In this document: one piece after another, positions 11,801-29,448 of the stretch
How positions within the stretch are numbered: the stretch's first letter is position 1
Layout of the letters: every line of letters starts with the position of its first letter
Origin: Lysobacteraceae bacterium
GTDB lineage: Bacteria > Pseudomonadota > Gammaproteobacteria > Xanthomonadales > Ahniellaceae
Reading direction: 5' to 3'
Length of the DNA: 63,492 bases
NCBI GenBank assembly: GCA_021299185.1
Contig: JAJTHZ010000014.1
Location: forward strand, 1 to 63,492
Made by a program: the position numbers and the translations under genes
Notes under the pieces: model-generated
Database searches by the model: none
The model's input: the letters and a program-made list of their open reading frames with translations, nothing else
What the model was told of the DNA's origin: nothing

Positions 11801-13430
11801 CGTCACCGTCGGTGTCACGGCGAGCGGCACGCTGGTGGCAACCCACCTGTCGGGTTCGTCGCCTGTGGCGACCCGCACCATCGCCGCCCAGACCGCAGGA
11901 GTGCAGCACATCGACGTTGCGTACCACGCCACCAACAGGATCGTCGCCGTCTGGTCGGAGAACACCCGTACCCCACTGCAATTGCAGGACTTGATCCGCA
12001 GTCAGCGCGAGCGCGCGTTCGACGCCATCGCACGTACTCAGCGCCTTCGATTCTCATCGTTCGATGGCCGCGTATGGTCGACGCCTGCAGACTTGACCGC
12101 TGTAGGCAACGATGGCAAGCCGCAGTTGGCTGGTTGCCTCCCGGCGCCGCGGTTGGTCGGCACTTCGGCGTGCCCGAGCGGTGGCGAAGTCACCGCAGTA
12201 TGGGAACGCGACGCCAATGCCAACCTGGACAACCCGGACATCGAAGTCTGGAGCTCGCGCTGGCAGTCGGCCCGCGGCTGGACGACGCCGTCGCGGGTCA
12301 GCGCCGCTGGGGCAAGCAGCGACATGCTGCCCTCCGTGGCCTACCGCAACGCGACGCCGATCGTGGTGTGGGCACACAATCGATCCGGGCACTTCGTCAA
12401 TCTCGGAGGACGACAAGCTGCCTATCGCTTCCTTGACGGGCGAAGCGAGCCGGTAATCGCCAGCGCTCTCGGATCCGGCGTCGGCTGGCTGTCGATCGGC
12501 GTGAGTCCTGCTGACGCGGTCGTGATCGCCTACACGCTGGCGCAGGATCCGCAGGGGTTCGTCGGCAATCGGCAGGCGCTTTTCGGCGCGCGCGCGACCA
12601 GCTGCGATGAAGCGGCAGGCACCTGCAGCTTCCTTGTCACGCAGCCGCGCGACGGCAATGGCCGCCAGTTCCGGGTCGAGCGTCCGCGGGTCGAGTTCGA
12701 CGACGAAGGGACGCCGATCATCGGCTTCCGTGCGGTGGGCTTCGGCCCCACCACGTCCGGCCAGGTCGGTTTGCCCGGTGACATGCCCGGTACCCTGCTG
12801 GGCACCGATGAGCTGGGTTCCGTGCGAGTGCACAGCTTTGCCCAGCCGATCTACACCGCACAGTTCGTGCCGCTCAGCGACAATGGTCTGCAGCACTGGA
12901 AGCCCGATTACGCATTCGACGATGTCAGCGGCAGCCTGCTCGTGGTCTCGATGCAGGCCCAGGCGCCGGTGAACGCGAGCGGGCCGATGCGCTTCGCCAA
13001 GGCCGTGATGGGGGACATCGGTGAGCGCATCGCGAAGGGGCAATCGTTGAACGACGGCGCCGTGCTGCGAATCGTGCCGAGCGGGCCCGATTTCAGCTTG
13101 CGTGACCCGCAGCCGTCGCGCAGCGTGGTGGCCGCAGGACAGTCGCTCAACCTTCGCCTCGGGCTCGTCAATCAGGGCCAAGCCTATGATCCGGCCACGC
13201 ACGGCGGTCTGAGGGTGGTGGTGAGCTGGAACGGTCCGGCAGGGGTCGGCGACGTGGCGGGCCAGTTCGAGCTGACCGACTCCCAACCCGCAAACGGCGG
13301 CCGCAACCTCACCATTCCCCTGACGGTGCCGGCCGGGCTGCGCAACGATCAGCGGCAGACACTGTTCGTCGACATCGTGGCTGGCGACGAGGCGAACACG
13401 TGGGTGGCACCGCCGATCGCGTGCTGGTGA
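8808..13430 (+). CDS. Giant exported multidomain protein, frameshifted near its end
   Basis: A 1540-residue frame starting with a signal peptide (residues 1-35, ending MPARAQS), with an SD-like GGGAG before the ATG. The order appears to be repeated Ig-like beta domains (about 40-340), a long Asn/Gly/Pro-rich region, an Ala/Leu-rich module around residues 835-900 containing FFDLDVLLGLISASIAAETE, a propeller-like region with recurring AVWSEN / VVWAHN phrases (about 990-1350), and a CARDB-like domain just before the stop. It closely parallels 21686-27452. The frame ends early; the expected C-terminus continues in another frame at 13400-13768, implying one lost base near 13395-13405. Function unknown; probably secreted or surface-exposed. 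Confidence 0.8.
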   Translation: MFNWVCPRGLGALAGIVVGVLLVIATGLPMPARAQSEIAAVPASFSNGARIRVATERLAVSTNYRVRLEQARPGAAEFDLLNFNSGSSTQPSLTAAIPDAPLGNYALVLYRVQLGLTKVAETPVTVVAGPSISLTSDSARPGKSVRVQAGNLVAGSLRVIYSGSTILGPIPVAAGTWSGKFVVPRDRPPSLPAAVAVVVENLVGRVVVARATTTFQALASSGQPRLRLSLSGTPPTPVRPGRSFTLAGRLQTDEGLAPQGAQSAYWRDARGVVMPLDQTISLAADGAFTMSARAPSNFLDGYPLYQSERGRITFVNRGQDPHTDSPFDDLSTNDSPFEVEFVGRNPASAQFTVVVQGNQPGNNDPLLGGVFVEAQQQWRSDFGGAPDGSGVWNNPNGDGGGPVNDMQALGTSNPNQFRNTSSFINPYSSQTYGCSATIFRRQTNASGEATFTFRPEAIANTNISSFANDPCRYTSQNCRPAAPGGSGALSPDQTRFIMQIYSAHVGYRNDFVELAYDGAIGRVVDPNTGQPFPNDRVTVRLTPSEQADFDLRNLRIDNLGAPWRKVDSAQSPCPPGSGGECYLQPFTFGTMYTYPDGNKWPASVFNPLNQGRVMRLQVDPAVTGPMAVGRMRIHGGPWINFVPGQGTPACVFDQTTPIEYVAALPDLTRLPVAGVTTNHNTGVSSGGINGEVELRFGMTALRTIPIKIATELPPTGLDVTNPQVTMLRINGQRDSLTVEFNYGGIDIPVPPPGHGIGNMDNVSQNDGTFSVTRAPDNAVNTLPSSTSNNDVAGRAGGPQPASGVFFGFTNADHSTPDPVTLFDTGVIPLFRYVWGIPPLAAATLGADFWMRSELAFYGQLMSAGMNATIDPTVEGGVKIFFDLDVLLGLISASIAAETEIGLTMRSIINDGGLAHQGVTQQSGACFRFDLDAVWEACAAGICGGGREPLIEEREPDNCSTSSRDRLPLALRMPEPGGFDLARPFYTATALANDGRANSVTVGVTASGTLVATHLSGSSPVATRTIAAQTAGVQHIDVAYHATNRIVAVWSENTRTPLQLQDLIRSQRERAFDAIARTQRLRFSSFDGRVWSTPADLTAVGNDGKPQLAGCLPAPRLVGTSACPSGGEVTAVWERDANANLDNPDIEVWSSRWQSARGWTTPSRVSAAGASSDMLPSVAYRNATPIVVWAHNRSGHFVNLGGRQAAYRFLDGRSEPVIASALGSGVGWLSIGVSPADAVVIAYTLAQDPQGFVGNRQALFGARATSCDEAAGTCSFLVTQPRDGNGRQFRVERPRVEFDDEGTPIIGFRAVGFGPTTSGQVGLPGDMPGTLLGTDELGSVRVHSFAQPIYTAQFVPLSDNGLQHWKPDYAFDDVSGSLLVVSMQAQAPVNASGPMRFAKAVMGDIGERIAKGQSLNDGAVLRIVPSGPDFSLRDPQPSRSVVAAGQSLNLRLGLVNQGQAYDPATHGGLRVVVSWNGPAGVGDVAGQFELTDSQPANGGRNLTIPLTVPAGLRNDQRQTLFVDIVAGDEANTWVAPPIACW

Positions 13431-13768
13431 CCTTGAACGAAATGCCGGTGCCGCAATCCGTGCGCGTGCACACCCGCCGCGATTCTCCCTTGGTCGACAT
13501 CACATGGTCTGATCCCAACGATGCGCGGATCGCCGGGTGGCGCGTGTGGAAGCGCAGCGCGACGGGCGAGTGGCAGCATCTCGGCAGCACGCGGGTGGCG
13601 GGCTACATGGACCTTCTCGGCACCATCGGCGGTGCCGTGCAGTACCGCGTCGCGGCCTACTCCGGCAACGGCGTCGAGTCGGTTCCCAGCGCGGTGGCCG
13701 ACGGCTTCATTTCCGTTTCGCGGGGTGATGCTCTTTTCCGTGACAGTTTCGAAGTGCCAGCGCCGTGA
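13400..13768 (+). CDS. C-terminal piece of the giant exported protein (FN3-like, FE tail)
   Basis: This frame overlaps the end of the 1540-residue frame and supplies the segment expected from its paralogue: an FN3-like domain (VDITWSDPNDARIAGWRVWK) followed by DALFRDSFEVPAP. In the paralogue at 24651-27452 the equivalent text is VQLNWDAPDDPRVIGWRVYR and DDALFRNGFETPTP in one continuous frame. It is therefore very unlikely to be a separate gene. Joined to 8808-13430 with one added base, it gives a protein of about 1653 residues. Confidence 0.75.
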   Translation: MGGTADRVLVTLNEMPVPQSVRVHTRRDSPLVDITWSDPNDARIAGWRVWKRSATGEWQHLGSTRVAGYMDLLGTIGGAVQYRVAAYSGNGVESVPSAVADGFISVSRGDALFRDSFEVPAP

Positions 13769-14020
13769 CTAAAAGTCGCCAACCGCCAGTGCTGCGCCGA
13801 CGTCGACGTGCGGCGCGCATCGCCGGGATCGACCTGCGTCGGCCGCGTGGTCGGGACTGCGCCGCGGCGCGCGTGAATTGCCAGCCGCAAGCGTGGGGTC
13901 CCATCGCGCCGGTGTTCGCGCAAGGCCTCACGCGTGCAGGCGGCCACGGGTGCGACTTCGTGAATTGCGTCGTGCGATTCGCTGTGTCAACGTCCGCCCC
14001 GGGTCATGCCGGGGCGGGCG

Positions 14021-14602
14021 ATGGGCGAGGTCACGCTGTTGATCGGACGCGCGCGGGACGGCGACCGGGAGGCCGCCGACGCGCTGTTCCGGGCGGTCTA
14101 CGACGACCTGCGGCGCATCGCCGGACGGCAGGCCGCGGGCGCCGGGGCCGGCGCGCACGGCGCGACCTCGCTGGTGCACGAAGCCTACTTCCCGCTGGCG
14201 AAGCCCGAGGCGCTGGCCTTGAACGACCGCCGGCACTTCTTCGCGGTGGCGGCGCGCGCGATGCGGCAGATCGCGGTCGACCACGCGCGCGAGCGATTGG
14301 CGGTCAAGCGCGGCGCGGGTGCACCGATGACCACGCTCGGGGCGGTCGACGCGCAGGCCGCCGACGACGCCCGGCTCGAGCGACTGCTCGACCTCGACGA
14401 GGCGATGAAGGCGCTCGAGGCCAGCGACGAGCGGCTCGCGCGGCTGGTCGAGCTGCGCCATTTCTCCGGCCTGCAACTGGACGAAGCCGGCGAGGTGCTG
14501 GGTCTGTCCGAGGCCACGCTCAAGCGCGACTACGCGAAGGCACGCGCCTTCCTGCATGCCTGGCTCGGCGATGGCGAGCCACGATCGGACGGCTCGGGCT
14601 GA
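14021..14602 (+). CDS. ECF-family sigma factor (TIGR02999-like)
   Basis: A 193-residue sigma-70 family factor. Region 2 is near residues 45-95 (SLVHEAYFPLAKPEAL and FFAVAARAMRQIAVDHARER), and region 4 with its helix-turn-helix is near 145-180 (LQLDEAGEVLGLSEATLKRD). The ATG at 14021 was chosen over 14006 because it matches the paralogue starting at 27528 (MVEVTQLIGRAREGD against MGEVTLLIGRARDGD). There is no anti-sigma gene. It is followed by an exported PD40 protein and then a Ser/Thr kinase. For related groups, control by a partner kinase is established (for example EcfK-PknS of Xanthomonas); its use here is inferred. Confidence 0.92.
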   Translation: MGEVTLLIGRARDGDREAADALFRAVYDDLRRIAGRQAAGAGAGAHGATSLVHEAYFPLAKPEALALNDRRHFFAVAARAMRQIAVDHARERLAVKRGAGAPMTTLGAVDAQAADDARLERLLDLDEAMKALEASDERLARLVELRHFSGLQLDEAGEVLGLSEATLKRDYAKARAFLHAWLGDGEPRSDGSG

Positions 14603-14724
14603 GCGAACGGGCTCGCGAGGCGCCGGGAGGCGCCTTCGCCCTGCGGTGAGCTCCGGCGGCCGGATCCGCCGTTACCTCGCCTGTAGCCCCGATTCCGCGG
14701 GGCCGACCCGCGAGGATCTTCGAC

Positions 14725-17253
14725 ATGCCGATAGAGCGCTCAGGGCACGTCCGACGCGGATTCGCCGTGGCGGCGACGCTGGCCGCGTCGTGCCTGTTCG
14801 ATGCGGCCCCTGCACAGGCCCAAGGCGACTGCAGCACGGGCTTCGAATGCGGACGCGTGGCCTGGGGCGAATACGTGCGCGACGGCGCGCAGTCGTACCG
14901 GCTGTGGCTGCAGGACTTCGACGGTGCGCGGCGCACCCTGCTGGCGGATTTCGGACCGTCCAGCGGCAACTTCGCCCGGGGCTTGCGCTTTGATGCCGCC
15001 TCGCGCCACCTTTATTTCATTGCCTCGGGGACGAGCAACTTCGACACCAATGTGTTCAGGATCCGGGTCGATGGCACGGGACTGGACAATCTGACCGAGG
15101 ATGGCTGCTTCACGGACGAGTTCGCGCTCTCGCCCGACGGCGCGCGAATCGCCTACCAGCGCAACTGCGGCCCGACCGATCTCGACGACAAGATCTGGCT
15201 GATGGACAACGACGGCGGCAACCAGCGCCTGCTGACGACAGCGCCACCGGTCAGCAACGATCCCACCGCCAACCAGCAGGAAAAGCCGGCGTTCAGCCCT
15301 GATGGCCAATTCGTGGTGTTCACCTCGCTGGCCGGCACGAGCGGGTCGCGGCAGGTGTATCGGTCCACGCTGGACGGCAACACGGTCGTCGCACTCACCG
15401 ATCCCGACATCGACAGCCGCTTCAACGACGAGCCCGTCTACCTGCCCGATGGCCGCATCGTGTATGCCTCCGGTCGTGCCGCGACGCAGGGGCCGCGGTT
15501 CAACGACCTGTATCGCATGGATGGCAATGGCGGCGGCGGGCTGCGCCTGACCGACATCGTCGGTGGCAAGTCCGACCTGGTGGTCAGCCCCGACGGCAGC
15601 CGGGTGCTGTTCATCAACCGGCCCGATCCGGTGGGCTTCACCGTGCCGCCGGTGCTTTACCTCGCGCGCACCGACGGCAGTGGCGTGGTCGCGCTCTACG
15701 ACGACCCGGCGGCCGAGCGCGTGTTCGTCAACAATGCGCGGTTCAGTCCCGACGGCAGTCGCGTCGCGTTCCAGTTGTGTTTCTCCAGCGGCGGCGACTG
15801 CACCAATGCCACGCGGGTGGTGGATCTCGACGGCGGCAACGCCGTGACCTACGGCAGCGCCACGGACAACGTCCCCTTCGGGGCCTTCGGCCGACCCGAC
15901 GTCGACGGCGACGGCGTGATCGACGGCGCCGATTCGTGCCCCGCGGTGCCCAACGGCTATCGCATCGCGGTGGAACTGGCGCCGCTCGACGTGTGGACGA
16001 TGAACTACGACGGTTCGCAGCAGGTCCGCCTCACCACCAGCTCCGCGGCCGACGTGCAACCGCGCTTCGACGCCACCGGCCGGCACATCATCTTCTCCTC
16101 GAGTCGCGCCGCCAACGACTTCGAGATTTACCGGATGAACGCCGACGGCAGCGGCGTAGTCCGCCTCACCAGCGTCGCCGGCGCCGACGAAGAGCCCGCG
16201 TTCAGCCCCGACGGCACCCGGTTCGCGTTCCTGGGGACACGCCCGTCGATGAACGGGTTCCGTCGCAATGTCTGGGTCATGGATGCCGACGGCAGCAATC
16301 CGCTCAGGCTCACGACCAGCCAGGGCTTCAACGGACAGGCCAACAACCCGGTGTTCAACGGCGACGGCACGCGCATCGCCTTCGACACGGTCCGCGATCT
16401 GCTCACCGGCAACAACCGCGACATCTATACGATCCGCGCCGACGGCAGCGACGAGGTTCGTCTCACCAGCACAGCCGGGATCGACATGGAACCCGCCTAC
16501 AGCCCCGACGGCAGGCGGATCGTGTTCATCTCGTACCGCGACGGCGCGGCGAACAACGGCGAGATCTACATCATGCGCGCCGACGGCACCGATCCGCAGC
16601 GCATCACACGCACGACCTTCCGCGAATCCAGGCCCACTTTCTCGCCCGATGGCGCGCAGATCGTGTTCATGGCCGACTACGACGGCAGCCTCCAGCTGCA
16701 CGCCATGAACCGCGACGGCACGGGCGTGCGCCAGATCACCCGCGGCACGAACTACGACCGCCCGACGCTGGCGCCGCAGGCCGATGCCGATGGCGACGGC
16801 ACCGGCGATGCCTGCGATCCGGCCTTCGATGCAGCGACCGCGGTCGGTGCACCAGTGGTGGTGCAGGCACCGGCCGGCAGTGTCGAGTTCGGCACGGTGA
16901 CCGGCGCGGGCGTGACGACCTTCACCGCGATCCAGCCGGATCCGAACGGCATGCCGGCGGGCTACACGCTGTGCGCGACCTGTCTCGCCTACGACATCAC
17001 GACCACCGCCGTCGTGGTGCCACCGATCACCGTGTGCATCGCGGTGCCCGCGGGCGTGCCGGCCGCCACCTTCCAGCAGCTTCGCCTGCTGCATGGCGCG
17101 AACGGGCAGTGGGTCGACCGAACGACACTGCGCATCGATCAGCCAGGCAGCCCGCGCAGGGTATGCGGTACGGTGGACTCGTTGTCGCCGTTTGCGCTGG
17201 CGTCGTTCGGCGGCGCGCCGATTGACGCGATCTTCGGCAGCGGCTTCGAGTAG
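14725..17253 (+). CDS. Exported PD40/TolB-like beta-propeller protein
   Basis: An 842-residue protein with a signal peptide (residues 1-33, ending APAQAQ). Between about residues 130 and 650 there are many PD40-type blades built on the phrase (F/L)SPDG followed by a beta strand and a D-x-DG turn, as in the TolB C-terminal propeller. Two thrombospondin-type-3-like calcium loops are visible, DVDGDGVIDGADSC near 392 and DADGDGTGDACDP near 688. A beta-sandwich follows, and the protein ends IDAIFGSGFE. That tail is shared with the two giant exported proteins. It sits between a sigma factor and a kinase on the same strand, so it may be a target or partner of the signalling pair; this is inference. 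Confidence 0.88.
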   Translation: MPIERSGHVRRGFAVAATLAASCLFDAAPAQAQGDCSTGFECGRVAWGEYVRDGAQSYRLWLQDFDGARRTLLADFGPSSGNFARGLRFDAASRHLYFIASGTSNFDTNVFRIRVDGTGLDNLTEDGCFTDEFALSPDGARIAYQRNCGPTDLDDKIWLMDNDGGNQRLLTTAPPVSNDPTANQQEKPAFSPDGQFVVFTSLAGTSGSRQVYRSTLDGNTVVALTDPDIDSRFNDEPVYLPDGRIVYASGRAATQGPRFNDLYRMDGNGGGGLRLTDIVGGKSDLVVSPDGSRVLFINRPDPVGFTVPPVLYLARTDGSGVVALYDDPAAERVFVNNARFSPDGSRVAFQLCFSSGGDCTNATRVVDLDGGNAVTYGSATDNVPFGAFGRPDVDGDGVIDGADSCPAVPNGYRIAVELAPLDVWTMNYDGSQQVRLTTSSAADVQPRFDATGRHIIFSSSRAANDFEIYRMNADGSGVVRLTSVAGADEEPAFSPDGTRFAFLGTRPSMNGFRRNVWVMDADGSNPLRLTTSQGFNGQANNPVFNGDGTRIAFDTVRDLLTGNNRDIYTIRADGSDEVRLTSTAGIDMEPAYSPDGRRIVFISYRDGAANNGEIYIMRADGTDPQRITRTTFRESRPTFSPDGAQIVFMADYDGSLQLHAMNRDGTGVRQITRGTNYDRPTLAPQADADGDGTGDACDPAFDAATAVGAPVVVQAPAGSVEFGTVTGAGVTTFTAIQPDPNGMPAGYTLCATCLAYDITTTAVVVPPITVCIAVPAGVPAATFQQLRLLHGANGQWVDRTTLRIDQPGSPRRVCGTVDSLSPFALASFGGAPIDAIFGSGFE

Positions 17254-17521
17254 GCGGGATGATTGCCTCTGCAGCCGCCAATTCGGCGCCGGCAAGTCGC
17301 GAGCTCGCCGCCCGCCGCCTTGTGCCCCGGCGGGCGTCGTGTCAGCGTGCACGCACGCGCACCGGACCGGCCAGGATGATGGCTTTGATGCTCGATCCCC
17401 CGTGCAACACGGTGTCGCCCGCCGACTGCGGAGTCGCGGGCCATGCGCGCGCCAAAGGCCCTTTTGCACGAATCGCAGCCCCGACGACGCACGCCGCCTG
17501 CTCGCCGCCTACGATGACTGC

Positions 17522-20122
17522 ATGGCGGTCGATGGCGCGGCGCGCGAGGCGCGGATCGCGCGCCACGAGCGCGAGGATCCCGGCATCGCGACGCGGCTGC
17601 GGTCGATGCTCGCGGTCGATGCCGGCCCGGCCGTCACCGATGCCTTCGGCATCGAGTCGGTGGTCGGCGAACTGGTGGCCGCGGCGACCGGTGCCGCGGC
17701 GGAAGGATCGCGCCAGGCGGGTCCCTTCACCCTGCTGCGCCTGCTCGGCCGCGGCGGCATGGGCGAGGTGTGGCTGGCCGAGCGCGACCACGATGGCTTC
17801 CGCCAGCAGGTGGCGCTCAAGCGCCTGCGCAGCGGGCGCGACAGCGAGGACCTGCGCCGCCGCTTCGTGCAGGAGCGGCGCATCCTGGCGGAGCTCTCGC
17901 ACCCCGGCATCGCGCGCTTCATCGACGGCGGCATCGACGATGCGGGTGCGCCCTGGTACGCGATGGAGTACGTGCAGGGCGTGCCGATCACCGAGCACGC
18001 CGCCGCGCGTGGCCTCGACGCGCGCGCGCGCGTGGCGCTGCTGGCCGAGGTCGCCGAGGCCGTGGCCTACGCGCAGAACCACCTGGTCGTGCACCGCGAC
18101 CTCAAGCCCTCGAACATCCTGATCGACGCCGAGGGGCGGCCGCGGCTGCTTGACTTCGGGATCGCCAAGCTGCTCGATGCCGCGGCGGCGGGCGAGGGCG
18201 AGACCGCCGCCGGGCTGCGTGCGATGACGCCGGACTATGCGGCGCCGGAACAGATCCTCGGTGCGCCGGTCAGCGCGGCGACCGATGTCTACGCGCTGGG
18301 CGTGGTGCTGTACCAACTGCTGACCGGCGACCTGCCGCACACCCGCGGCGCGGCCAGCCTGGAGTCGCTGGTCGACGCGGTGCGCACCGAGGTGCCCGAG
18401 CGGCCGAGCGCGCGTCTGCGCCGCGTCGGCGCGGGCGGCAGTGGCACCGGCGGCGCCGCGTCGCGGACCCTGCGCACGCTGCGCGGCGACCTCGATACCA
18501 TCGCGCTGATGGCCCTGCGGCGCGAACCGGAGCGCCGCTATGCGTCGGCCGCCGACTTCGCGCGCGACCTGCGTCGCTGGCTCGACGGCCGGCCGATCGC
18601 GGCACAGGCCGACACCACCGGCTACCGCATGCGCAAGTTCGTGGCGCGCCACCGGCTGGCGGTGGGCAGCGCGAGCGCCGTGCTGCTGGCCCTGATCGCC
18701 GGCTTCGGCACCGCGTTGTGGCAGGCGAGCGTGGCGCGCAGCGAGGCGGCGCGCGCGCAGCAGCAGGCGGAAGTGGCGCGCAAGGCGCAAGCCGATGCGG
18801 AAGCGATCAATCAGTTCTTCGGCCGCATGCTGGTCGATGCGCGTGCGCAGGACCAGGGTGCTGGCGCGGCCCTGACCGTGAAGGACTGGGTGCTGGCCGC
18901 GGTGCCCAGGCTCGACGAGGCCCTCAAGGACGCGCCCGCCGCCCGCGCGACGCTGCGCCGGGAACTGGGCGCAGCGCTGCACCAGCTCGGCGCGAGTGCG
19001 CGCGCACGCGAGGTCCTGGAGACCGCGGTCGCCGAGAACGCGGCGGCTTATGGTGATTCGCTGCAGACGGCGGTCGCGACGACGCTGCTCGGCAGCGCCT
19101 TGTATGCCGTCGGCGAGCCGGCGGAGTCGCGGCGGCGCGCCGAGGCGGCGATCGTCATGCTCGACGGCCTGCCGAGCACGAACGACGTCCGCCTGGACCG
19201 CATCCAGGCGCGCACCACCCTGTTGCGGATCCACAGCCTCGGTGGCGACCATGCCATGGCGCTCACGCTGGCCGAGCGCAACCTCGAAGAGCGCGCGGCG
19301 CTGTTCGGCGCCGACGACCCCCAACTCGCGGTCGATTACAACAACCTCGCCAGCTCCTACAACCGGCTCGGCCGCCTGGCCGAGGCCGAGACGGCGCAGC
19401 GCAAGTCGTTGGCGCTGTTGGAGCGCAACCCCGAGCGTCCGGTCGCGCGGATCGCCTTCGTGCACACGAACCTGTGCATGCTCGCCGTGCAGCGCGCGCG
19501 CTACGCGGACGCCGAGGCGTCGTGCCAGGCGGCCCGAGCGCGATACACCGAGTCGCTCGGTCCCGATTCCATCGAGATCGCTTCGGTCGATTCGAGCCGC
19601 GCGCACGTTGCCTTCGCCGCCGGCGACTCCGACGCCGCGCGCGCCTTGCTCGACGACGCGGAGCCGCGCCTGGTCGCTGCGCAGCGCAAGGTCGACGTGC
19701 TGCTGGTGGCGACGGTGCGGATGCGCCTGGCCGTGCGCGATGCCGACTGGAAGCGGGTCGAAGCGGAAGGCGAGCGCTTGCGCAGCATGCTGCCGCCACC
19801 CACGGCGGACGCGGTCGCCGATGAACGACTGCTCGCGGACGCCTTCACGTCGCTGGCGCGCGGCATGCGCTCCGGCCACGACGGGGCGGTGACCGAAGCG
19901 CGCCGGATCGCCGCGTCGATGCTCGAGCGTCCGCAGGTCGTCGCCTACTATCGCGCAACCGCCGCGCTTGCGGGATCGCTCGCTGCTGCCGCGGAAGGCG
20001 ACAGGTCCGCCGCGCAGGGCTTTCGCGAGGCCGCCGTCGCGGCGCTGGCGGAGAACATGCCGCGCGAGGAAGCCGTCGCGCTGTGGGCGCGCTGGTTGCC
20101 CGTGGAGCAAGCGCCACGCTGA
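17522..20122 (+). CDS. Membrane Ser/Thr kinase with TPR sensor region
   Basis: At least 866 residues. A Hanks-type kinase domain shows GRGGMGEVWLAE near residue 77, the ATP-binding Lys in QQVALKRL, HRDLKPSNIL near 190, LLDFGIAKLL near 210 and APEQ after it. One membrane helix is near residues 381-400 (SAVLLALIAGFGTALW), then a TPR region to the C-terminus (YNNLASSYNRLGRLAEAETA). The true start is unclear. Paralogues have about 20 more residues, and similarity (SPDDARRLLAAYDDC) continues upstream of this ATG, yet no start codon is in frame there. An ATG at 17443 in the next frame reads MRAPKALLHESQP and would join with one base removed near 17480. Confidence 0.88.
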   Translation: MAVDGAAREARIARHEREDPGIATRLRSMLAVDAGPAVTDAFGIESVVGELVAAATGAAAEGSRQAGPFTLLRLLGRGGMGEVWLAERDHDGFRQQVALKRLRSGRDSEDLRRRFVQERRILAELSHPGIARFIDGGIDDAGAPWYAMEYVQGVPITEHAAARGLDARARVALLAEVAEAVAYAQNHLVVHRDLKPSNILIDAEGRPRLLDFGIAKLLDAAAAGEGETAAGLRAMTPDYAAPEQILGAPVSAATDVYALGVVLYQLLTGDLPHTRGAASLESLVDAVRTEVPERPSARLRRVGAGGSGTGGAASRTLRTLRGDLDTIALMALRREPERRYASAADFARDLRRWLDGRPIAAQADTTGYRMRKFVARHRLAVGSASAVLLALIAGFGTALWQASVARSEAARAQQQAEVARKAQADAEAINQFFGRMLVDARAQDQGAGAALTVKDWVLAAVPRLDEALKDAPAARATLRRELGAALHQLGASARAREVLETAVAENAAAYGDSLQTAVATTLLGSALYAVGEPAESRRRAEAAIVMLDGLPSTNDVRLDRIQARTTLLRIHSLGGDHAMALTLAERNLEERAALFGADDPQLAVDYNNLASSYNRLGRLAEAETAQRKSLALLERNPERPVARIAFVHTNLCMLAVQRARYADAEASCQAARARYTESLGPDSIEIASVDSSRAHVAFAAGDSDAARALLDDAEPRLVAAQRKVDVLLVATVRMRLAVRDADWKRVEAEGERLRSMLPPPTADAVADERLLADAFTSLARGMRSGHDGAVTEARRIAASMLERPQVVAYYRATAALAGSLAAAAEGDRSAAQGFREAAVAALAENMPREEAVALWARWLPVEQAPR

Positions 20123-20328
20123 GCACGGCGGCCTGTTGCCGCGCGCTGCGCCCAGGGCCCGCGACGCGGTCGCGTGCGATCGGCTCGTGGCGGCGCGGCG
20201 CGTGGCCGCCGCGTTGCAGGCGCATTCGGGGCGTCGCGACGAGGTCGAGCGGGGCAGCCCCGCCATGGGCTTTCCGCGCGCGATTCTCCGTGGTCATGGA
20301 TGAAGCATCCCTTGCCAGGCCCCGCCCG

Positions 20329-21021
20329 ATGAACGCCAGCGCGCCCGATACCGCCGCCGCGTCGCCATCCGCCCACGCCGATCGCGGGCAGTACCTCGCG
20401 CGCCTGCTGCCGGAGATCGTGGCCTGCGCCACCGCGCTGGCGCTCGCGCTCGGACTGCTGCCCGAAGGGCTGGCCGGATCGGTACGGCGGATGCTCGACG
20501 GGATCGTGGCCTTCGAAGCGGTGACGCTGATGTTCCTGTGCATCCTGGTCGATGTCGCGACCCGCCTGCGCCGCGCGCCGCCGTGGTGGCTCGGGCTGCT
20601 GGGCTGCGGCGCGCTGCTGGTGCTGTACCCCGAGGTGCCGGGCCTGTTGATCGGCGCCCTTCACGAAGGCCTGTGGGTGGCGTTGCCGTTCGCATGGTCG
20701 ATGATCGAACGCCTGCGCGAATTGTGGACCCTGCCCGGCAGCCCGCGGATCGAAAAACTGCGCCGTCGTGCGCTGACCTTCGGGCGATTGTTCAGCGGCC
20801 TCGTGGTCGCCGGCACCTTCGTGCTGGCGTGGCTGCTGGAATCCATCGTCAGCGACGCCGGCGGCCGCGTGCAGGGTCTTGCGCCGTGGTTCGTCGCGGC
20901 GTACTTCGCGCTCGCGGCCTGCGATGCCTGGCGCGTGCATCGCCCCGCCTTCGCGATCCGCCCGCGCAACCTGTGGCCATGGTTCGACGGCGGGCAGACC
21001 GAGCGCATGGACCCGATCTAG
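20329..21021 (+). CDS. Small multi-pass membrane protein, unknown
   Basis: About 230 residues (241 if ATG 20296 is used; neither start has a strong SD). Four to five hydrophobic segments are visible: EIVACATALALALGLLPEGL, FEAVTLMFLCILVDVA, WLGLLGCGALLVLYPEVPGL, FSGLVVAGTFVLAWLLESIV and FVAAYFALAACDAW. The layout recalls small ion-transport or voltage-sensor-like proteins, but no diagnostic motif such as an S4 arginine ladder or selectivity filter is seen, so function is left open. It is on the same strand as the kinase, 206 bp away, and convergent with the gene at 21088-21516. Confidence 0.75.
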   Translation: MNASAPDTAAASPSAHADRGQYLARLLPEIVACATALALALGLLPEGLAGSVRRMLDGIVAFEAVTLMFLCILVDVATRLRRAPPWWLGLLGCGALLVLYPEVPGLLIGALHEGLWVALPFAWSMIERLRELWTLPGSPRIEKLRRRALTFGRLFSGLVVAGTFVLAWLLESIVSDAGGRVQGLAPWFVAAYFALAACDAWRVHRPAFAIRPRNLWPWFDGGQTERMDPI

Positions 21022-21087
21022 CGCCACGCCCCGCGCGATCCCACGGGGGCCTCCGGAGGTCGTCCAGCGACCCCGTGGTGCACGCGT

Positions 21088-21516
21088 TCAGACGTCGATC
21101 GCCGCCAGCGTCGCGCCGACCAGCACCTTGCCCTCGTGCGTGCCGCGAACCGCGACGCAAAGAGTCCACGGGCCTGCAGCGAGCTTCTTGCCGTCACGCT
21201 CGACGCTGAACTGGTGCACGCCGGCGTTGCGGTTGACGCCGGACGAGATCGTGAGCGCACGGTCGTGGGCCCAACCGGTCGGCGACTGCACCGCGGCGAC
21301 CGCGAAGTTCGGTGCGTCGAGGCCATCCACCACCAGCCCGCTGGCGCGGTCGATGGCGAGCACGCTCACCGTCACGCCGAAGCCGTAGTCGCGCAGCACC
21401 ACGTCGAGGGCCAGCGCGCGCAGCGACACCGAGGGCGTCGCGCCGCCGCCGGCCACGGGGCCCGGGCGGCGGGTGGTCGGGGACTTGCGGGAGGTCGGGG
21501 TCTTGCGGGTCGCCAT
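21088..21516 (-). CDS. Unknown 142-residue protein with basic N-terminus
   Basis: The first 25 residues are rich in Lys, Arg, Thr and Pro (MATRKTPTSRKSPTTRRPGP) and look disordered. A compact beta-rich domain follows (SLRALALDVVLRDYGFGVTV, then WTLCVAVRGTHEG). No signal peptide or family is recognised. The gene at 40904-41452 has a similar basic N-terminal tail before a beta-rich domain, but the domains are not obviously alike. It is divergent from the giant exported protein starting at 21686, leaving 169 bp for two promoters. Confidence 0.65.
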   Translation of the reverse strand: MATRKTPTSRKSPTTRRPGPVAGGGATPSVSLRALALDVVLRDYGFGVTVSVLAIDRASGLVVDGLDAPNFAVAAVQSPTGWAHDRALTISSGVNRNAGVHQFSVERDGKKLAAGPWTLCVAVRGTHEGKVLVGATLAAIDV

Positions 21517-21685
21517 GGCGGGGCCTTTCTCGTCCGGTGGGGATCAATCCATCCACGGAAAAAGCGCGGCCGGGGGACCACCCGCCCGCCTCGCCCGACC
21601 GGGTCCCCGGTCGATGGTCCCGTTCGGCGCCGGAATCCGTGGTTCCGGAGACGAGGCGCCACGTCGGCCGCCCGGGGAATCGGAT

Positions 21686-24649
21686 ATGGGCATTCGCGCG
21701 GTATTCGGATGGATGGTCCTGGTTGCCCTCGCCGCGGTGTCGAGACCGCTGGTCGCACAGGACCTCGACCAGGGCCTGGTCGCCTACTACGCGTTCGAGG
21801 AAAACGCCGAAGACAGCGGGCCCAGTGGCCATGACGGCACGGTGGTTGGCGCGCCGAACTACGTCGCGGGGGTGCGCGGCCGCGCGATGACCTTCGACGG
21901 CGTGGACGACGCGGTGACGTTCCCGGGCATCCCCAACGCCGCCTTCGCCGGCAACTTCAGCATCTCGTGGTTCATGCGGGTGCCCGCGCACGCGAAGTAT
22001 GCCGTGCTGAGCAAGCGCGGGAGCTGCAACCTCACCAACGCTTTCGATATCCGCACCACGGACGAGACGCCCAGCCGCACGCGGTTCAGTGCGGTCTACG
22101 GCGCCGGCTTCACGGATGCGTTCGGCCGTGCGCTGACGCCCGGCCAGTGGACGCATGTCGCCGTGGTGCGCGATGGCGGCACGGTCCGCGTGTACACCGA
22201 CGGCGTGGCCGGCACGGCGAACACCACCGCCTCGATGAACCTGTCCGCCGTGACGGCGCCGTTCGGCATCAGCATCACGCCCTGCATCACGTTCGGCGAC
22301 GGCACGGTGCGCTTCGCAGGGCAGATCGACGAGCTGCGGCTCTACGACCGCGCGCTGTCGGCGGGCGACGTCGACACGCTCTCCGGGCTGCCGAGCCTCA
22401 GCGTTTCCCCGGCCACGGCCAGCGTCGGTGGGCAGGTCTCCTACACCGCGAGCGACCTCGTCCTCGGTCGCACCTACACCCTGCGCATGGGCTCGCGGAC
22501 CCCCGACACGGTGCTCGACACCTTCACCGCCGGCGCGGGCGTCGTGCGGCGCACGTTCCAGATGCCCGACCTGCCTGCCGGCGACTACCGGCTGGCCCTG
22601 CAGTACAGCCTGTTTCTGCAGACCCGCACCCATGCCACCGCCGCGGCGACCATCGCGCCGCGCCTGACGGTGTCGGTGTCCACCGCGAACCCGCAGGCGG
22701 GCAAGTCGATGGTGGTGAACGTCGGCAACCTGGCTCCCGGTTCGCTGCAGCTGCGCTATGCCGGCCGCGTGGTCGCCGGTCCGGTGAACGTCGCCGGCGC
22801 CAGCCAGGCGCTGCGCTTCGTCGCGCCCGCCGACATCCCGGCCAGCCTGCCCGCCAACGTCACCCTGGTCGCGGAGCTGCTTTCCGGCCGGCTGGTGGCG
22901 CGCAACGGCAGCACCACGGTCAACGTGGCCGCGCCGTTCACCGGCGTGTTCGCGCTGCCCACCGGCATCGCCAGCAACAACCCGACGCCGCGACCCCGCG
23001 ACCGCGTGCAGGTGAGCGGCCAGCTCAACCTCGCCGACGGCACGACGCCGAACGACGTCGACGTCAGCGTGTTCTGGGTCGGCAACGACGGCCGCATCAC
23101 GCCGCTGCCCACGACCGCCCTGCAGGTGAATGCCGACGGCACGTTCAACCTCAGTACGCGGCCGGTGTCGCTGGCCGGCATGACAGCCGTCAATACCGCC
23201 GGGCCCGGCCGCCTGCGCGTGGTGACGCGCCGGATCAACGCGCTGGGGCGCCCGGAGTACAGCACCGTCGACGGCCCGACGCTGTCGACCGTGTACGACA
23301 CCGACCCGCAGCGCGACATTACGCTTCTGGTGCGCGCGCGCGGCGCGAACAACCAGCTGACGCCGATCGAAGGCGCCTACATCGTGGTCGAGCCCACGGC
23401 ACCGCTGCAGGGCTTCCAGTTGCCGCCGCCGCCACCGTCCGGGGGCGGGACTTCGCAGTACCAGACCACGGGTGCCGCGGTGTCGCAGCTGTCCAACGCA
23501 AGTTTCGCCAGCCCCAGTACGGTGGTCGGGGGGCTCGGTGCGGTGAACCAGGCCAGCAACGTGCTCGGCGGGGTCAGCCTGCCGCCGCCGCCCTGCGGGC
23601 TGGATCTCTACCGGCGCTACACCGACGCCCAGGGCCGCGCGAGTTTCAATGTCGAAGGCGAGACCCAGGGCGCGCCGGGATCGTTCTTCGCCCTCTCGAC
23701 CCTCGGCTTCGTCGCGTCCGACTGCAATGGCGCCGCCGGCTGCGGCAGCGCCCTGCCGACGCCGGCATCGGTGTTCGACATCACGGTGTTCACCCTGCAC
23801 AAGGGCGCGGGCTTCCTCAATGCGGAAGGCAGCGAGTCGCCCACGCGACTGCGCGTGACCTACTTCCGCGACACCGGCCTCTTCCGCTTCACCGACCTGC
23901 GCACCGGCGAGGTGACCGAGCAGACCGGTTCGGCCAACTACACCGTGATCGCGCCCGTGCAGTCGCTGGGTTCGATGGTGACGATCGAGCATCCGTTCAT
24001 GTACCGCGCGGCGCCAGCCGGCGGCGTGATCAGCCGCGAGATCGGGCCTGATGGCCGTTCCGCGCACTTCTCCGGCTGGGCGCATTTCTCGACCGGCTTC
24101 GATTCCGGCGGCGGCTTGGGCGGCGGAAACGGCAATCCCAACTACACGTTCACCAACCTGCCGCCGCGCAACATCATCGCTTTTCGCCATCGCGCGGACG
24201 CCGGTGGCCCGCTGACGCAGGCGCGCCTGGTGCTCGAGGCTGCATATCCGGGACAGCCCGAACTGGTGCTCGGTGACTTCGCGCCGGTCGCGAACCCGCT
24301 CGCCTGCAACATCCAGGACGACGGCAGCACCGCTGGCCGACTGCTGTACCAGCTCGAACTCGATCCTGCGCTGTGGCGGTTTCCGGGAACACGGCAGTTG
24401 ATTCCCTACGCCGATCTTCCGGTGACGCTGCGTGGCCGGATCGAGTACCGCAACCAGCAGGGCGTGACGGGCACGCGGCCGGTGAGCTTCACGTGGCGTC
24501 CGTTCGAGGAGGCGCTGTGCCAGTTCGACGACTCGCAGTCGCCGCCGGTTCGGCTGCCGTGTCCGGACGTGCTCGTCGACGACACGATTCTCGGCAGCGA
24601 GCTGTCCGAGGCGCAACCCGTGGTGCACAGCAACCGCGAGGACCGGCAA
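21686..24649 (+). CDS. Giant exported LamG protein, N-terminal part (frameshift follows)
   Basis: About 988 codons before a one-base insertion near 24648-24650. The ATG at 21686 is preceded by GGGGAA and starts a signal peptide (MGIRAVFGWMVLVALAAVSR to LVAQ). A LamG/concanavalin-like domain spans about residues 26-235 (GLVAYYAFEENAEDSG, TFDGVDDAVTFPG, QIDELRLYDRALSAGDVDTL). Ig-like domains follow, similar in order and phrasing to 8808-13430, then a Pro/Gly-rich segment (QLPPPPPSGGG) and a carboxypeptidase-regulatory-like region. LamG domains bind sugars or proteins in other systems; the ligand here is unknown. If the frame is read on without correction, it runs to 26494 through an unrelated Arg-rich sequence. 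Confidence 0.8.
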
Positions 24650-24650
24650 A

Positions 24651-27452
24651 CGTTTCCCGTCCAACATCGACGGCAACCAGTTCCGTGGCGATCCGGTCAA
24701 GCGCAACAACTCGCGCGTGATCGAGCGCCGCGACGGCCAGAGCGGTGGCTCGCGCAGCACGCTCGACGGGCAGGTGGACCGGCAGTTGAACAAGGGCGCT
24801 TCGGATCGCAGCAAGGAGGTTCAGCCCAATGGTGCGGCGCTCGTGAGCTTCGGTTCGCAGCAGTACGAGACTGTGCTGGACAAGGAGATTCCGCTGCTGC
24901 AGGTGACCTTCGGCATCCCCGGGCTCGCCGGCGCCGATGCATACGCCTCGCTGCGCCTGCTCGCGCAGTACCTGTACTTCGGCCAGGCCGGGTTGGTCGA
25001 CGGCGATCCCTACCTGAAGCTCGCCACCGACGCGGCATTCGGGGTCGGCATCGCCGCGGGTGTCGACCTCGACGTGCTGTTCGGCCTGCTGTTCGATGCC
25101 GGGTTCGGTCTCGCCGGCCTGGCGACCTCGAGCATGCAGGCCCTCGTGGAGACCCGGCGCCCGACGCGGGTCGACTCGTGCCTCAACTTCACGCTCGACT
25201 TCTTCGTCTACTTCGACCCCTGCCCGATCTGCCCCACGCCGGCGATCGAGGAGACCTACAACATCTTCCGCGAGGACATCTTCGACTGTCCGGACATCGT
25301 TGGTCGCTCGCCGCTGCTGAATGCATTGGCGCAGTCCGCCGCGCAGAGGGGGGCCGAGCCGGTGTTCGACCTGGCCATGCAGCGCAGCCTGCGCCGGCAC
25401 CCGGCAGTGTCGTTCGATACCGTGGGCAACGGCTCCATGCTGGTGCTCGACGACTCCCGGCGCCTGGTCGCGCGTGCGCTCGTCGACGGCGCGCCCGGGG
25501 CGCCCACCGTTCTCAGCAGCGCGCCGGTGATCCGCAACGCGCGGATCGTCCACTACGCGCCGAACCGCGCGATCGCGGTCTGGGCCGAGAACGCGCTCAC
25601 CGCGCCGCAGATCCAGGCCCTCAACCCGCTGGGCTTCGCCAGCGCAGGCTTTCGCGAAGTGGTCAGTCGCCAGCGGCTTGCGTGGGCGCAGTTCAACGGC
25701 ACGGCGTGGAGCCCGAAGCAGTTCCTGACCTCCGGTGCCGCCGGCGAAGGCTTCGTCGACCTCGCCGCCTGCCGCGCCGGGGTAGCAGGCTGTCCGCAGG
25801 CAGGCGAGGTGTTCCTCGTCTTCCAGCGCAACACCAGCGCCGACCACACGGCACCGGCGCATCGCGTATTCTCGGCACGCTGGCAGCCAATCACCGGATG
25901 GTCGACGCCGGCCGCCGTCTCGACCACCGGCGGCGTGCAGGACATGGCCCCGGTGGCGACCTACGTCGGCAGCGCGCCGCTGGCCGCCTGGGTGCGCAGC
26001 ACGGGCACCGATCCGATCCTCGCCCCGCGCCGACTGGTCACGCGCTTCGTCGGCACCGGTCCGGTGCAGGTCCACGACCTGCTGCCGCCGGGTGCCAACG
26101 CCCTCACGCTGTCAGGTCGCGCTTCGGTCGCCAGTGCCGGCGAACGGGACGCGTTTCTCGCCTTCTTTGCGCCAGACCCGACGACCGGGCCGATCGGCAT
26201 CGGCCAGGCGCTGCACGTGGGCTCGGCCAACTGCGACACGGGTGCCGGTACCTGCACCTGGCAGGTGCGACGCGCGCGCGTCCAGGGAGAGCCCGAGAGT
26301 GCGGTATACGCCGACCGTCCGACCCTGCGCAATCGGGGTCGGATCGGCGTCGCGCGCGTGTTCGGCCTCAAGCCGAAGGAGCCCGACACGGTCGACAAGG
26401 CCGCGGCTGCGCCCGCGCCCAAGGCGGGTGGCATCGGGTATGTCGGCCCATCCACGATGCTGGTGACGGCCGGGCTGCTCAATGGCGCCGGTGACCAGAT
26501 GCGCTTCTCGATCGACTACGCGACCGGCGAGGTCACGCCGATCGCGCTGACCGTGGACGGCCTCGGCTACTACGGCCTGGTGGCGGCGTTCGATGCGGTC
26601 AACGAGCGCGTCATCTCGATCGGTTCGCCCAACCCGGCGGCGATGGCGCCGCCGCTGATGGCCCGGCTGCTGAAGTCGGTCGACGCCCTGGACCACCGCG
26701 GCGCCGCCAAGTCCATCGCGGTGGTCGACGGCGTCGAACTCTCGATGCTGCCGGAGCTGCCCGACCTGGCGATCATCGGGATCGGGATCGCGGCGAGCCA
26801 GGTGGCGCCGGGCCAGCCGTTGACCGCCAACGTGACGATCAGCAACCTCGCCGCCGCCTACGACACCGCCACCGACGGCATCGCGAGGCTCGAACTGCGC
26901 TGGAACGCGCCGACCGGAACCGGCCAGCCGCTGGCCCAGGTCGAACTCGCCAGCCTCGCGGCCGGTGCGTCGCGCACCGTGCCAGTGGCGTTCACCACGC
27001 CCGCCGCCGCATTCTCCGACGAGTCGCACGTCCTGTACGCGCGGATCGTGCCTGCGGCCTCGCTGGCCGAGGTCGACGGCGGGAACAACGAAGCGCGCTT
27101 CGAATTCGCCGGGTTGCCGATTCCGGAGGCACTGCGCTTCGTGACCGCACCCGGCGTCGCCGCGGTGCAGTTGAACTGGGATGCGCCCGATGACCCGCGC
27201 GTGATCGGCTGGCGCGTCTACCGCCGCAGCGCGGCTGGCGACTGGGAGCCGCTGGGCGCAACGCTCGAAAAGGGGTTCCTCGACCTGTCGGCGCAGTTCG
27301 GCGTGCCGCGGACCTATGCGGTGGCCAGCTACTCAGCGCGCGGCGTCGAGTCGAGCCTGAGCGAATCGCTGTCGGCGGCGCCCGAGGCTGCGAGTCCCGC
27401 GCCAGGTGACGACGCCTTGTTCCGCAACGGCTTCGAAACCCCCACGCCATGA
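24651..27452 (+). CDS. Giant exported LamG protein, C-terminal part (CARDB, FN3, FE tail)
   Basis: About 933 residues continuing the preceding frame after the shift (RFPSNIDGNQFRGDPVKRNN). Visible parts: an Ala/Leu-rich module with AAGVDLDVLFGLLFDAGFGL and a Cys cluster (FDPCPICP), a propeller-like region with AVWAENA and LAAWVRSTG phrases, a CARDB-like domain (TANVTISNLAAAYDTATDG), an FN3-like domain, and the final DDALFRNGFETPTP. Joined to the N-terminal part, the protein would have about 1921 residues. It is immediately upstream of a second sigma factor/kinase pair (75 bp gap). Confidence 0.82.
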   Translation, partial: RFPSNIDGNQFRGDPVKRNNSRVIERRDGQSGGSRSTLDGQVDRQLNKGASDRSKEVQPNGAALVSFGSQQYETVLDKEIPLLQVTFGIPGLAGADAYASLRLLAQYLYFGQAGLVDGDPYLKLATDAAFGVGIAAGVDLDVLFGLLFDAGFGLAGLATSSMQALVETRRPTRVDSCLNFTLDFFVYFDPCPICPTPAIEETYNIFREDIFDCPDIVGRSPLLNALAQSAAQRGAEPVFDLAMQRSLRRHPAVSFDTVGNGSMLVLDDSRRLVARALVDGAPGAPTVLSSAPVIRNARIVHYAPNRAIAVWAENALTAPQIQALNPLGFASAGFREVVSRQRLAWAQFNGTAWSPKQFLTSGAAGEGFVDLAACRAGVAGCPQAGEVFLVFQRNTSADHTAPAHRVFSARWQPITGWSTPAAVSTTGGVQDMAPVATYVGSAPLAAWVRSTGTDPILAPRRLVTRFVGTGPVQVHDLLPPGANALTLSGRASVASAGERDAFLAFFAPDPTTGPIGIGQALHVGSANCDTGAGTCTWQVRRARVQGEPESAVYADRPTLRNRGRIGVARVFGLKPKEPDTVDKAAAAPAPKAGGIGYVGPSTMLVTAGLLNGAGDQMRFSIDYATGEVTPIALTVDGLGYYGLVAAFDAVNERVISIGSPNPAAMAPPLMARLLKSVDALDHRGAAKSIAVVDGVELSMLPELPDLAIIGIGIAASQVAPGQPLTANVTISNLAAAYDTATDGIARLELRWNAPTGTGQPLAQVELASLAAGASRTVPVAFTTPAAAFSDESHVLYARIVPAASLAEVDGGNNEARFEFAGLPIPEALRFVTAPGVAAVQLNWDAPDDPRVIGWRVYRRSAAGDWEPLGATLEKGFLDLSAQFGVPRTYAVASYSARGVESSLSESLSAAPEAASPAPGDDALFRNGFETPTP

Positions 27453-27527: not shown

Positions 27528-28092
27528 ATGGTCGAGGTCACGCAGTTGATCGGACGCGCGCGCGAGGGCGACCGCGACGCCTCGCACGCGCTGTTCCGCG
27601 CGGTCTACGAGGACCTGCACCGGTTGGCCGCGCGCCAGGTCGGGCGCGGCGAGGGCGGCGGGCTCGGCAGCACCTCGCTGGTGCACGAGGCCTACCTGCG
27701 GCTCGCGAAGCCCGAGGCGCTGGGCATGGGCGACCGCTCGCACTTCTTCGCGGTCGCCGCGCGCGCGATGCGGCAGATCGCGGTGGACCATGCGCGCGAG
27801 CGGCTGGCGGCCAAGCGCGGGGGCGGGTTGCCGGACACCACGCTGGGTGCGGCCGACCGCGTGCCGGCGGACGACGACGGCCGCCACGACCAGATGGTGG
27901 CGCTCAACGAGGCGCTCGACGCCCTGGAGGCCGCCGATGCGCGCCTCGCCCGGCTGGTCGAACTGCGCTTCTTCGCCGGCATGTCGCTGGAGGAAGCCGG
28001 CGAACTGCTCGGCCTGTCACCAACCACGCTCAAGCGCGACTTCCGCAAGGCGCGCGCCTTCCTGCATGCGCGACTCGGGCCGGGACCGCTGG

Positions 28093-28109
<17 letters not shown>
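27528..28109 (+). CDS. ECF-family sigma factor, paralogue of 14021
   Basis: 193 residues, colinear with the factor at 14021-14602 along its whole length. Region 2 is SLVHEAYLRLAKPEAL and FFAVAARAMRQIAVDHARER; the region 4 HTH is MSLEEAGELLGLSPTTLKRD. A strong GGAG lies upstream of the ATG. Its 3' end overlaps the start of the kinase at 28093 by 17 bp, a tight translational coupling and the best evidence in the window that sigma factor and kinase form one unit. No anti-sigma protein is encoded. Activation by the coupled kinase is inferred from related families. Confidence 0.93.

Positions 28110-29448
<1,339 letters not shown>

Follow-up and report, generated by a model that had tools for sequence, protein, structure and literature searches.

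What function lies behind a nearly identical run of residues at the ends of several exported proteins? The question is raised by a 63,492-nucleotide stretch of DNA from a Lysobacteraceae bacterium (GenBank assembly GCA_021299185.1, contig JAJTHZ010000014.1), which we call the window. An initial annotation had pointed to three exported proteins with the tails DALFRDSFE, DAIFGSGFE and DALFRNGFE, and translation of the window confirmed all three in place (Table 1). We find that the tails are real and far beyond chance, and that they represent a linear motif that is portable, as opposed to a membrane-anchor signal confined to the C-terminus. Our preferred reading, with a probability of about 0.55, is that this motif (hereafter the tag) is a lineage-specific targeting signal for one of the type II secretion systems (T2SSs) of the order Lysobacterales (= Xanthomonadales), designated T2SS-A. 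Named relatives of the ribosomal protein L13 encoded in the window point to this order. Genomes are labelled G, loci L, families f1 to f11 and one genus g13; the genome of the window is G000 and its contig C195.

The tail as a motif of exported proteins

Within the window, the degenerate pattern [FLIV]F..[GSAD][FLIW][EDQ] has three matches only, all of them terminal, when open stretches of at least 60 codons are searched in six frames. Over the whole genome, F-x-x-[GSR]-F-E (TTYNNNNNNRGNTTYGAR) is matched 124 times (58 + 66), compared with 6 times (2 + 4) for the reversed pattern, and a DNA pattern for DAxF..GFE occurs at seven places, every one 0-4 residues before a stop codon. Reading 85 distinct places among the 124 matches placed 70 of them no more than 12 residues from an in-frame stop. 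The other 15 comprise two at 19 and 37 residues from the stop, three right after a signal peptide, six internal and four off the core motif; an internal match at L050 (FGGGFE, in a protein with TonB-receptor domains) is probably due to chance. The 46 C-terminal copies of this genome give the consensus D-[AP]-[LIV]-F-[AGR]-[DN]-[GS]-F-E-P, the E being followed by 0-7 residues, often Pro, Ala or Ser, and the tail overall can be written as D-[AP]-[LIV]-F-x-[DN]-[GS]-F-E-P(0-1)-x(0-7)-end. Third codon positions vary, indicating that selection acts on the protein.

Inspection by eye of the 46 tails found neither a transmembrane stretch nor a basic cluster after the motif, which bears out the earlier judgement that it is unlike PEP-CTERM or GlyGly-CTERM signals. 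Five copies directly follow a signal peptide: at L011, L054 and L062 of the same genome, L101 (f8) and L096 (f9) the motif stands at the mature N-terminus, a few residues past the likely cleavage site (the L011 protein resembles DUF1800 by eye). At L041, L087, L109, L013 and L025 it lies between domains or ahead of an extra C-terminal stretch, and L026 (G000:C58, around 4510-4566) has two tandem copies (RLFADGFESGATPRVFGDGFESCSG), 77 and 90 residues before the end of the protein. The motif thus needs neither a free C-terminus nor a following membrane helix, which separates it from PEP-CTERM-like signals and suits an exposed recognition motif. A C-terminal cleavage or anchor signal was rejected as the leading explanation on the same two grounds, the missing transmembrane stretch and the N-terminal copies. 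The suggestion in the initial annotation of a sorting or secretion tag is therefore supported, if indirectly, apart from its strictly C-terminal placement, with T2SS-A as the best clue to the reader.

Homology of a larger domain does not account for the tail. Among 46 aligned carriers (45 terminally tagged proteins and the probable chance match L050), F, F and E form the only invariant columns. These carriers match 63 Pfam families, the commonest of which, PD40, occurs in four of them; the 25 most-matched families include peptidases S8, M12 and M14, endonuclease I, beta-propellers, beta-helices and Ig-like domains. A model of the tail itself should match many members and so be expected among the most-matched families, yet none is present in the 25 most-matched of the 63 Pfam or the 25 most-matched of 106 NCBIfam families. 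No shared folded C-terminal domain was seen, nor any sorting-domain model of the type IX secretion system (T9SS) among the same 25 NCBIfam families. A single shared domain as the source of the tail, which the initial annotation had named as an outcome that would undo its suggestion, is thus rejected.

The tagged proteins are enriched in signal peptides. We scored them with a crude home-made rule, leaving out any protein that lacks a 5' end or does not exceed 90 residues. Of 100 C-terminally tagged proteins 77 pass; of the untagged proteins encoded in the same stretches, drawn from three genomes, 99 of 321 do (odds ratio 7.5, p 3e-16). The rule itself and the fact that the stretches were picked around tags push the latter rate up. 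Many of the 23 tagged proteins failing the rule have a signal peptide by eye or a doubtful start. A 400-kb sample of genome G036 of genus g13, unselected for the tag (twenty evenly spaced 20-kb stretches, 282 proteins), gave the same picture: 8 of 10 proteins with the terminal tags described below passed, compared with 69 of 272 others (p 6e-4). Equal frequency of the tail in cytoplasmic proteins, the other outcome named beforehand, is therefore not what is seen. Only five carriers are lipoproteins, too few to judge depletion, and a structure model of a tagged subtilase was uninformative (predicted local distance difference test, pLDDT, 31.6).

Distribution of the tag and of T2SS-A

We surveyed 397 Pseudomonadota genomes with the strict pattern F-x-[DN]-G-F-E, using its reverse as control. 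All 385 genomes outside the order have at most 10 matches, often slightly above the control (up to 10 vs 1). Three of the 12 genomes inside the order have 25, 41 and 82, and many genomes of the order reach 25 to 113. Two metagenome-assembled genomes, Lysobacterales bacterium Bin_30_4_2 and IP29b_bin.149, have 63 and 100. Only 0-4 matches each were found in the named genomes of Xanthomonas, Stenotrophomonas, Lysobacter, Luteimonas, Pseudoxanthomonas, Thermomonas, Arenimonas, Rhodanobacter, Dyella, Luteibacter, Frateuria and Fulvimonas. We call a genome tagged when it has at least 10 strict matches; G099 (9), G132 (8) and G138 (8) fall just below. Such genomes make up f1, f3, f4, f5, f6, f10, nearly all of f8, part of f9 and a few of f7, together with just two genomes of f2 and ten of f11; most genomes of these two families lack the tag. 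It recurs in genomes of all eleven families.

A search for the secretin GspD in 20 tagged and 19 untagged genomes showed that nearly every tagged genome has two full-length secretins. In a maximum-likelihood tree, one of them forms clade A (support 95/98), whose 19 rows come from 19 of the 20 tagged and none of the 19 untagged genomes. The Xps-type secretin, clade B, is present in all 20 tagged genomes and in 18 of the 19 untagged ones, and the Xcs-type GspD of two f2 genomes falls outside clade A. A T2SS in general is therefore no discriminator, since the Xps type is found in tagged and untagged genomes alike; the A system alone follows the tag. When a profile of A-type GspD (cut-off 620 bits) was extended to 249 genomes, it was matched in 62 of 67 tagged and 23 of 182 other genomes (odds ratio 86, p 6e-33, uncorrected for kinship). 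Four of the 85 calls are fragments (G104, G118, G128 and G138), with which the GspC profile agrees for the last three and more weakly for G104. The association also holds where the tag is rare: in f2, A-type GspD occurs in exactly the two tagged genomes, G081 and G620, and in f11 it occurs in all ten tagged genomes, with an A-like GspD in three untagged ones, G613, G640 and G658.

Five tagged genomes have no A-type GspD, namely G113, G040, G108, G057 and G087; G113 has a GspC-A located 427 bases from a contig start. Among the 23 genomes with A-type GspD and fewer than 10 strict tags, 15 belong to genus g13 of f9, and G058, G099, G129 and G138 have 4-9 matches. The A-type GspD of untagged G640 (f11; L355, G640:C1:1325000-1344500) nests in clade A and groups with the two f2 A-type rows. 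The T2SS genes around it form one relocated cluster, in which GspC has diverged, and it looks like the product of horizontal transfer.

Genus g13 is of particular interest. T2SS-A is present in 15 of its 15 genomes and at least 10 canonical tags in none; if T2SS-A reads the tag, the genus should thus carry another one. Ten proteins in the G036 sample have a terminal tag no more than 14 residues from the end, nine of the form F-x-D-R-F-[EDQ] and one F-x-D-G-F-Q (for example DGIFADRFE, GLLFRDRFEASALRP and DPLFEDRFEQ; loci L361-L380). In this variant the glycine has become arginine and the rest is much the same. Nine of the ten have a signal peptide by rule or eye, and [LIVMFAQG]F.[DN][GR]F[EDQ] has no further match in the 282 proteins sampled. 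Recognition of this variant was post hoc and concerns one of the fifteen genomes. A looser F..GFE variant considered for g13, G072, G026 and G640 was discarded, the places read being noise; in G026 (f7), none of six was a convincing tag. Co-variation of the GspC PDZ domain with the glycine-to-arginine change showed nothing clear in the too few sequences available.

T2SS-A is a complete system by its gene content: GspD scores above the curated cut-off, all 19 GspC-A have a T2SSC domain, and a gspG-K(-N) cluster is present. Canonical GspG exceeds its cut-off in all ten tagged genomes searched; GspE, F and H-N were identified without a profile, from gene order, similarity to one another and appearance. 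The genes are split in two clusters, which in the genome of the window lie on contigs C15 and C66, outside the window. One, gspC-gspD-gspE (with gspF in some genomes), adjoins what we take to be rhlB (12 of 19 loci), trxA (11) and rho (9), with presumed ftsE-ftsX after it in 6; the other, gspG-H-I-J-K(-L-M-N), adjoins presumed rsmE (9 of 13 loci) and bioA (8), these neighbours being named from the look of the sequence. A PDZ domain was found in 19 of 19 GspC-A and 0 of 6 GspC-B, the latter recognised mainly by their place before gspD. Structures similar to an AlphaFold model of GspC-A (mean pLDDT 76, mostly >90 in the homology region (HR) and the PDZ region) include the PDZ domains of EpsC and PulC as well as an HR structure of GspC. 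PMC11981180 likewise reports that, in place of the PDZ fold of OutC and EpsC, only one helix is predicted for XpsC of Xanthomonas. Separately, one contig of the genome of the window carries a second canonical GspG (L344, G000:C17; 174.9 bits), further pseudopilin-like genes and a weak GspD match (134.6 bits), and possibly represents a third T2SS.

A proposed mechanism and its rivals

From these data we infer recognition of the tag by T2SS-A, with the PDZ domain as reader, and secretion of the tagged proteins. In the route we propose, carriers would enter the periplasm by their signal peptide and fold there. The tag, lying at an end of the protein (usually C-terminal, sometimes N-terminal, occasionally between domains), should stay reachable, and the folded protein would be recruited to T2SS-A by the periplasmic recognition parts, most likely the GspC PDZ domain and/or the GspD N-domains, and then be released or displayed outside. 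The [DN]G turn between two aromatics would suit a small beta-hairpin inserting into the PDZ groove. The fuller version of this proposal, for which we see the odds as evenly balanced, is a linear, position-independent T2SS signal of nine residues that, in much of the order, marks up to ~100 mostly unrelated exoproteins, with the form F-x-[DN]-G-F-E or, in one genus, F-x-D-R-F-E. It would be read most likely by the GspC PDZ domain and ignored by the second T2SS of the cell, whose GspC shows no PDZ domain. Outside the order, T2SSs with a PDZ domain are known too (EpsC, PulC) without the tag being common there, which excludes a general T2SS signal.

Several observations weigh against this proposal. 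Two tagged genomes, G040 (90% complete) and G108 (94%), have neither A-type GspC nor A-type GspD. The f7 genomes G087 and G057, with 11 and 15 strict matches (controls 2 and 0), have no A-type GspC, GspD or GspG, their only GspG being of the Xps type. The G057 matches are pattern counts, and G087, in which the places were read, is a real exception: all eight lie no more than 6 residues from the stop, and six are convincing tags. It is possible that the f7 tags are relics of a recent loss of T2SS-A. Conversely, G613 and G658 pass the 620-bit cut-off although their GspD falls outside clade A (that of G658 groups with the Xcs type), and G072 has a syntenic A cluster, its two strict matches both proving not to be genuine tags. 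The few proteins with a tag between domains are harder to explain, and the T2SS literature consulted holds secretion information to be structural. The threshold for a tagged genome was chosen after the counts were seen, and the concordant changes perhaps amount to only three or four events (f2, f11 and f7; an estimate). Only T2SS genes were profiled, so that every other gene with losses on the same few branches would fit equally, and co-occurrence is not mechanism.

The main rival, to which we assign a substantial minority chance, is that the tag serves to anchor or process its carriers: once they have been exported, by T2SS-A or by another route, some surface factor would bind, cleave or covalently modify the tag, much as in T9SS, GlyGly-CTERM or sortase systems, and that factor would have disappeared from the same clades as T2SS-A. 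The carriers indeed resemble those of other anchoring systems (subtilases, beta-propellers, beta-helices), and 6 of the 46 match choice-of-anchor Q, at a lenient threshold (E up to 5). [DN]-G is well known as a reactive, turn-forming dipeptide, and co-loss with T2SS-A would be expected if T2SS-A delivered the carriers. However, the 46 tails have no transmembrane stretch or basic cluster after the motif, N-terminal copies on mature proteins do not suit C-terminal cleavage, and no candidate enzyme is known from a search that covered T2SS genes only.

It is improbable, in our estimate, that periplasmic chaperones or proteases of the DegP/DegS/Prc type use the tag as a handle and that its link with T2SS-A is indirect. 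Such proteases are generally known to bind short hydrophobic C-terminal peptides via PDZ domains, and G087 and G057 have tag matches without T2SS-A. On the other hand, untagged genomes too have other PDZ proteins, probably DegP-like judging from their length (weak PDZ-only matches include the untagged G012, G022, G091, G021, G038 and G105), and the motif is followed by anything from 0 to 7 residues and also occurs in N-terminal copies.

That the tail is a functionless leftover, the terminal strand of a duplicated or shuffled domain, we regard as very improbable. Some carriers are paralogous, two of the three in the window among them; yet no column outside the motif is invariant, third codon positions vary, the tail recurs across f1-f11 while being absent from most of f2 and f11, and in the sampled g13 genome it has changed coherently to FxDRF[EDQ].

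Chance or composition (GC-rich repeats) has next to nothing left in its favour and is refuted for the genome of the window: the noise among loose-pattern places in g13, G026, G072 and G640 and the slight excess over the reversed control outside the order are outweighed by the 124 matches against 6, by their position, reading frame and link to signal peptides, and by the 25-113 matches in many genomes of the order against at most 10 in the 385 outside it.

The window genes and known sorting systems

Table 1. Tags, tagged genes and neighbouring regulatory genes of the window (whole-window coordinates)
Feature	Position	Strand	Basis
Tag DALFRDSFE, then VPAP and stop (13766-13768)	13727..13753	+	Translation; genome pattern match C195:13736-13753
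Tag DAIFGSGFE, exact C-terminus, stop 17251-17253	17224..17250	+	Translation, genome pattern match
Tag DALFRNGFE, then TPTP and stop (27450-27452)	27411..27437	+	Translation, genome pattern match
Tagged exported PD40/TolB-like beta-propeller protein	14725..17253	+	Open reading frame (ORF); Pfam PD40 6.9e-48
Signal peptide of the PD40 protein, MPIERSGHVRRGFAVAATLAASCLFDAAPAQA	about 14725-14820	+	By eye from translation
First tagged paralogue, 5' part; signal peptide about 8808-8909	8808..13430	+	ORF; signal peptide by eye; paralogy
First tagged paralogue, 3' part, other frame, tag at end	13400..13768	+	ORF
Second tagged paralogue, 5' part; signal peptide about 21686-21757	21686..24715	+	Start and signal peptide by eye
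Second tagged paralogue, 3' part, other frame, CARDB match, tag at end	24717..27452	+	ORF, Pfam, translation
ECF sigma factors (PF07638) and Ser/Thr kinases (Pkinase)	14021-14602, 17522-20122, 27528-28109, 28066-29448, 31691-34309		

The initial annotation had described the three tagged proteins of the window as differing in architecture and all bearing signal peptides. The first point stands for the PD40 beta-propeller protein, which is unrelated to the other two; the first and third tails lie on paralogues (39% identity over the last 112 residues, 28% over 785), so that the window alone offers two independent kinds of carrier, not three. Signal peptides can be seen by eye for all three. Both long paralogous genes, however, switch frame in the assembly (window 13400-13430 and about 24486-24717); their tag-bearing ORFs have no signal peptide of their own, and those seen start the 5' ORFs. 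The 5' part of the second paralogue also contains a Laminin_G_3 domain (Pfam 2.7e-18, queried stretch 21473-24715). One tail is at the exact C-terminus, as described, and the two others are each followed by four residues, where four or five had been given.

The tagged exported genes of the window alternate with genes for extracytoplasmic function (ECF) sigma factors and Ser/Thr kinases, two of the three kinases having TPR repeats. Kinases of that family (12, the window included) and sigma factors (7) recur in the stretches fetched around tags of this genome, and some of the same kinases and sigma factors are found near tags in two other genera. It may be that these kinases and sigma factors regulate the tagged genes. 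As candidates for a partner of the tag the neighbours were set aside, the recurrent ones being these kinases and sigma factors, that is, cytoplasmic proteins.

It has long been asked how a T2SS distinguishes its substrates from the other folded proteins of the periplasm. According to PMC12369372 and PMC7949064, no common or universal linear T2SS secretion signal is known, and against this background a shared linear T2SS-linked tag is unusual. Since tag and machine largely come and go together, the question becomes testable by grafting nine residues onto a reporter. If the proposal is true, a T2SS recognition site would be identified, whole secretomes would be readable from sequence and a compact export tag would be at hand; even with another reader, the tag would be a sorting-type signal, carried by ten to a hundred proteins per tagged genome, for which we found no family model. 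Searches of the open-licence literature, some of them swamped by unrelated words, returned no published description of the tag, which is weak evidence of absence.

Known sorting systems share its broad outline. In GlyGly-CTERM/rhombosortase, PEP-CTERM/exosortase and MYXO-CTERM/myxosortase, one short terminal signature likewise marks dozens of unrelated exported proteins per genome, is lineage-restricted and connects many proteins to one presumed reader. However, these signals consist of a motif, a transmembrane helix and a basic cluster and are C-terminal only, whereas the present tag has no helix or cluster and stands at either end of the mature protein. T9SS of Bacteroidota likewise uses a C-terminal signal to route signal-peptide proteins across the outer membrane by a dedicated machine; its signal is a folded domain of about 70-100 residues, in contrast to the 7-9 residues of this tag in Pseudomonadota. 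The tripartite architecture of MYXO-CTERM is mentioned in the abstract of PMC11980579.

The closest functional parallels come from T2SS itself. For one Vibrio substrate, VesB, excerpts of PMC12369372 report that secretion depends on the PDZ domain of EpsC and that the secretion information in its Ig fold can be grafted onto a passenger. For PelI and Pel3, excerpts of PMC7949064 deal with loop 3, the nine-residue loop of PelI being a secretion signal that interacts with GspC and GspD. As in our proposal, recognition in these cases is periplasmic, by way of GspC and GspD, and loop 3 of PelI has the length of nine residues. The VesB and PelI signals are described as structural, with no motif common to the substrates, whereas the present tag is one linear motif on many unrelated proteins.

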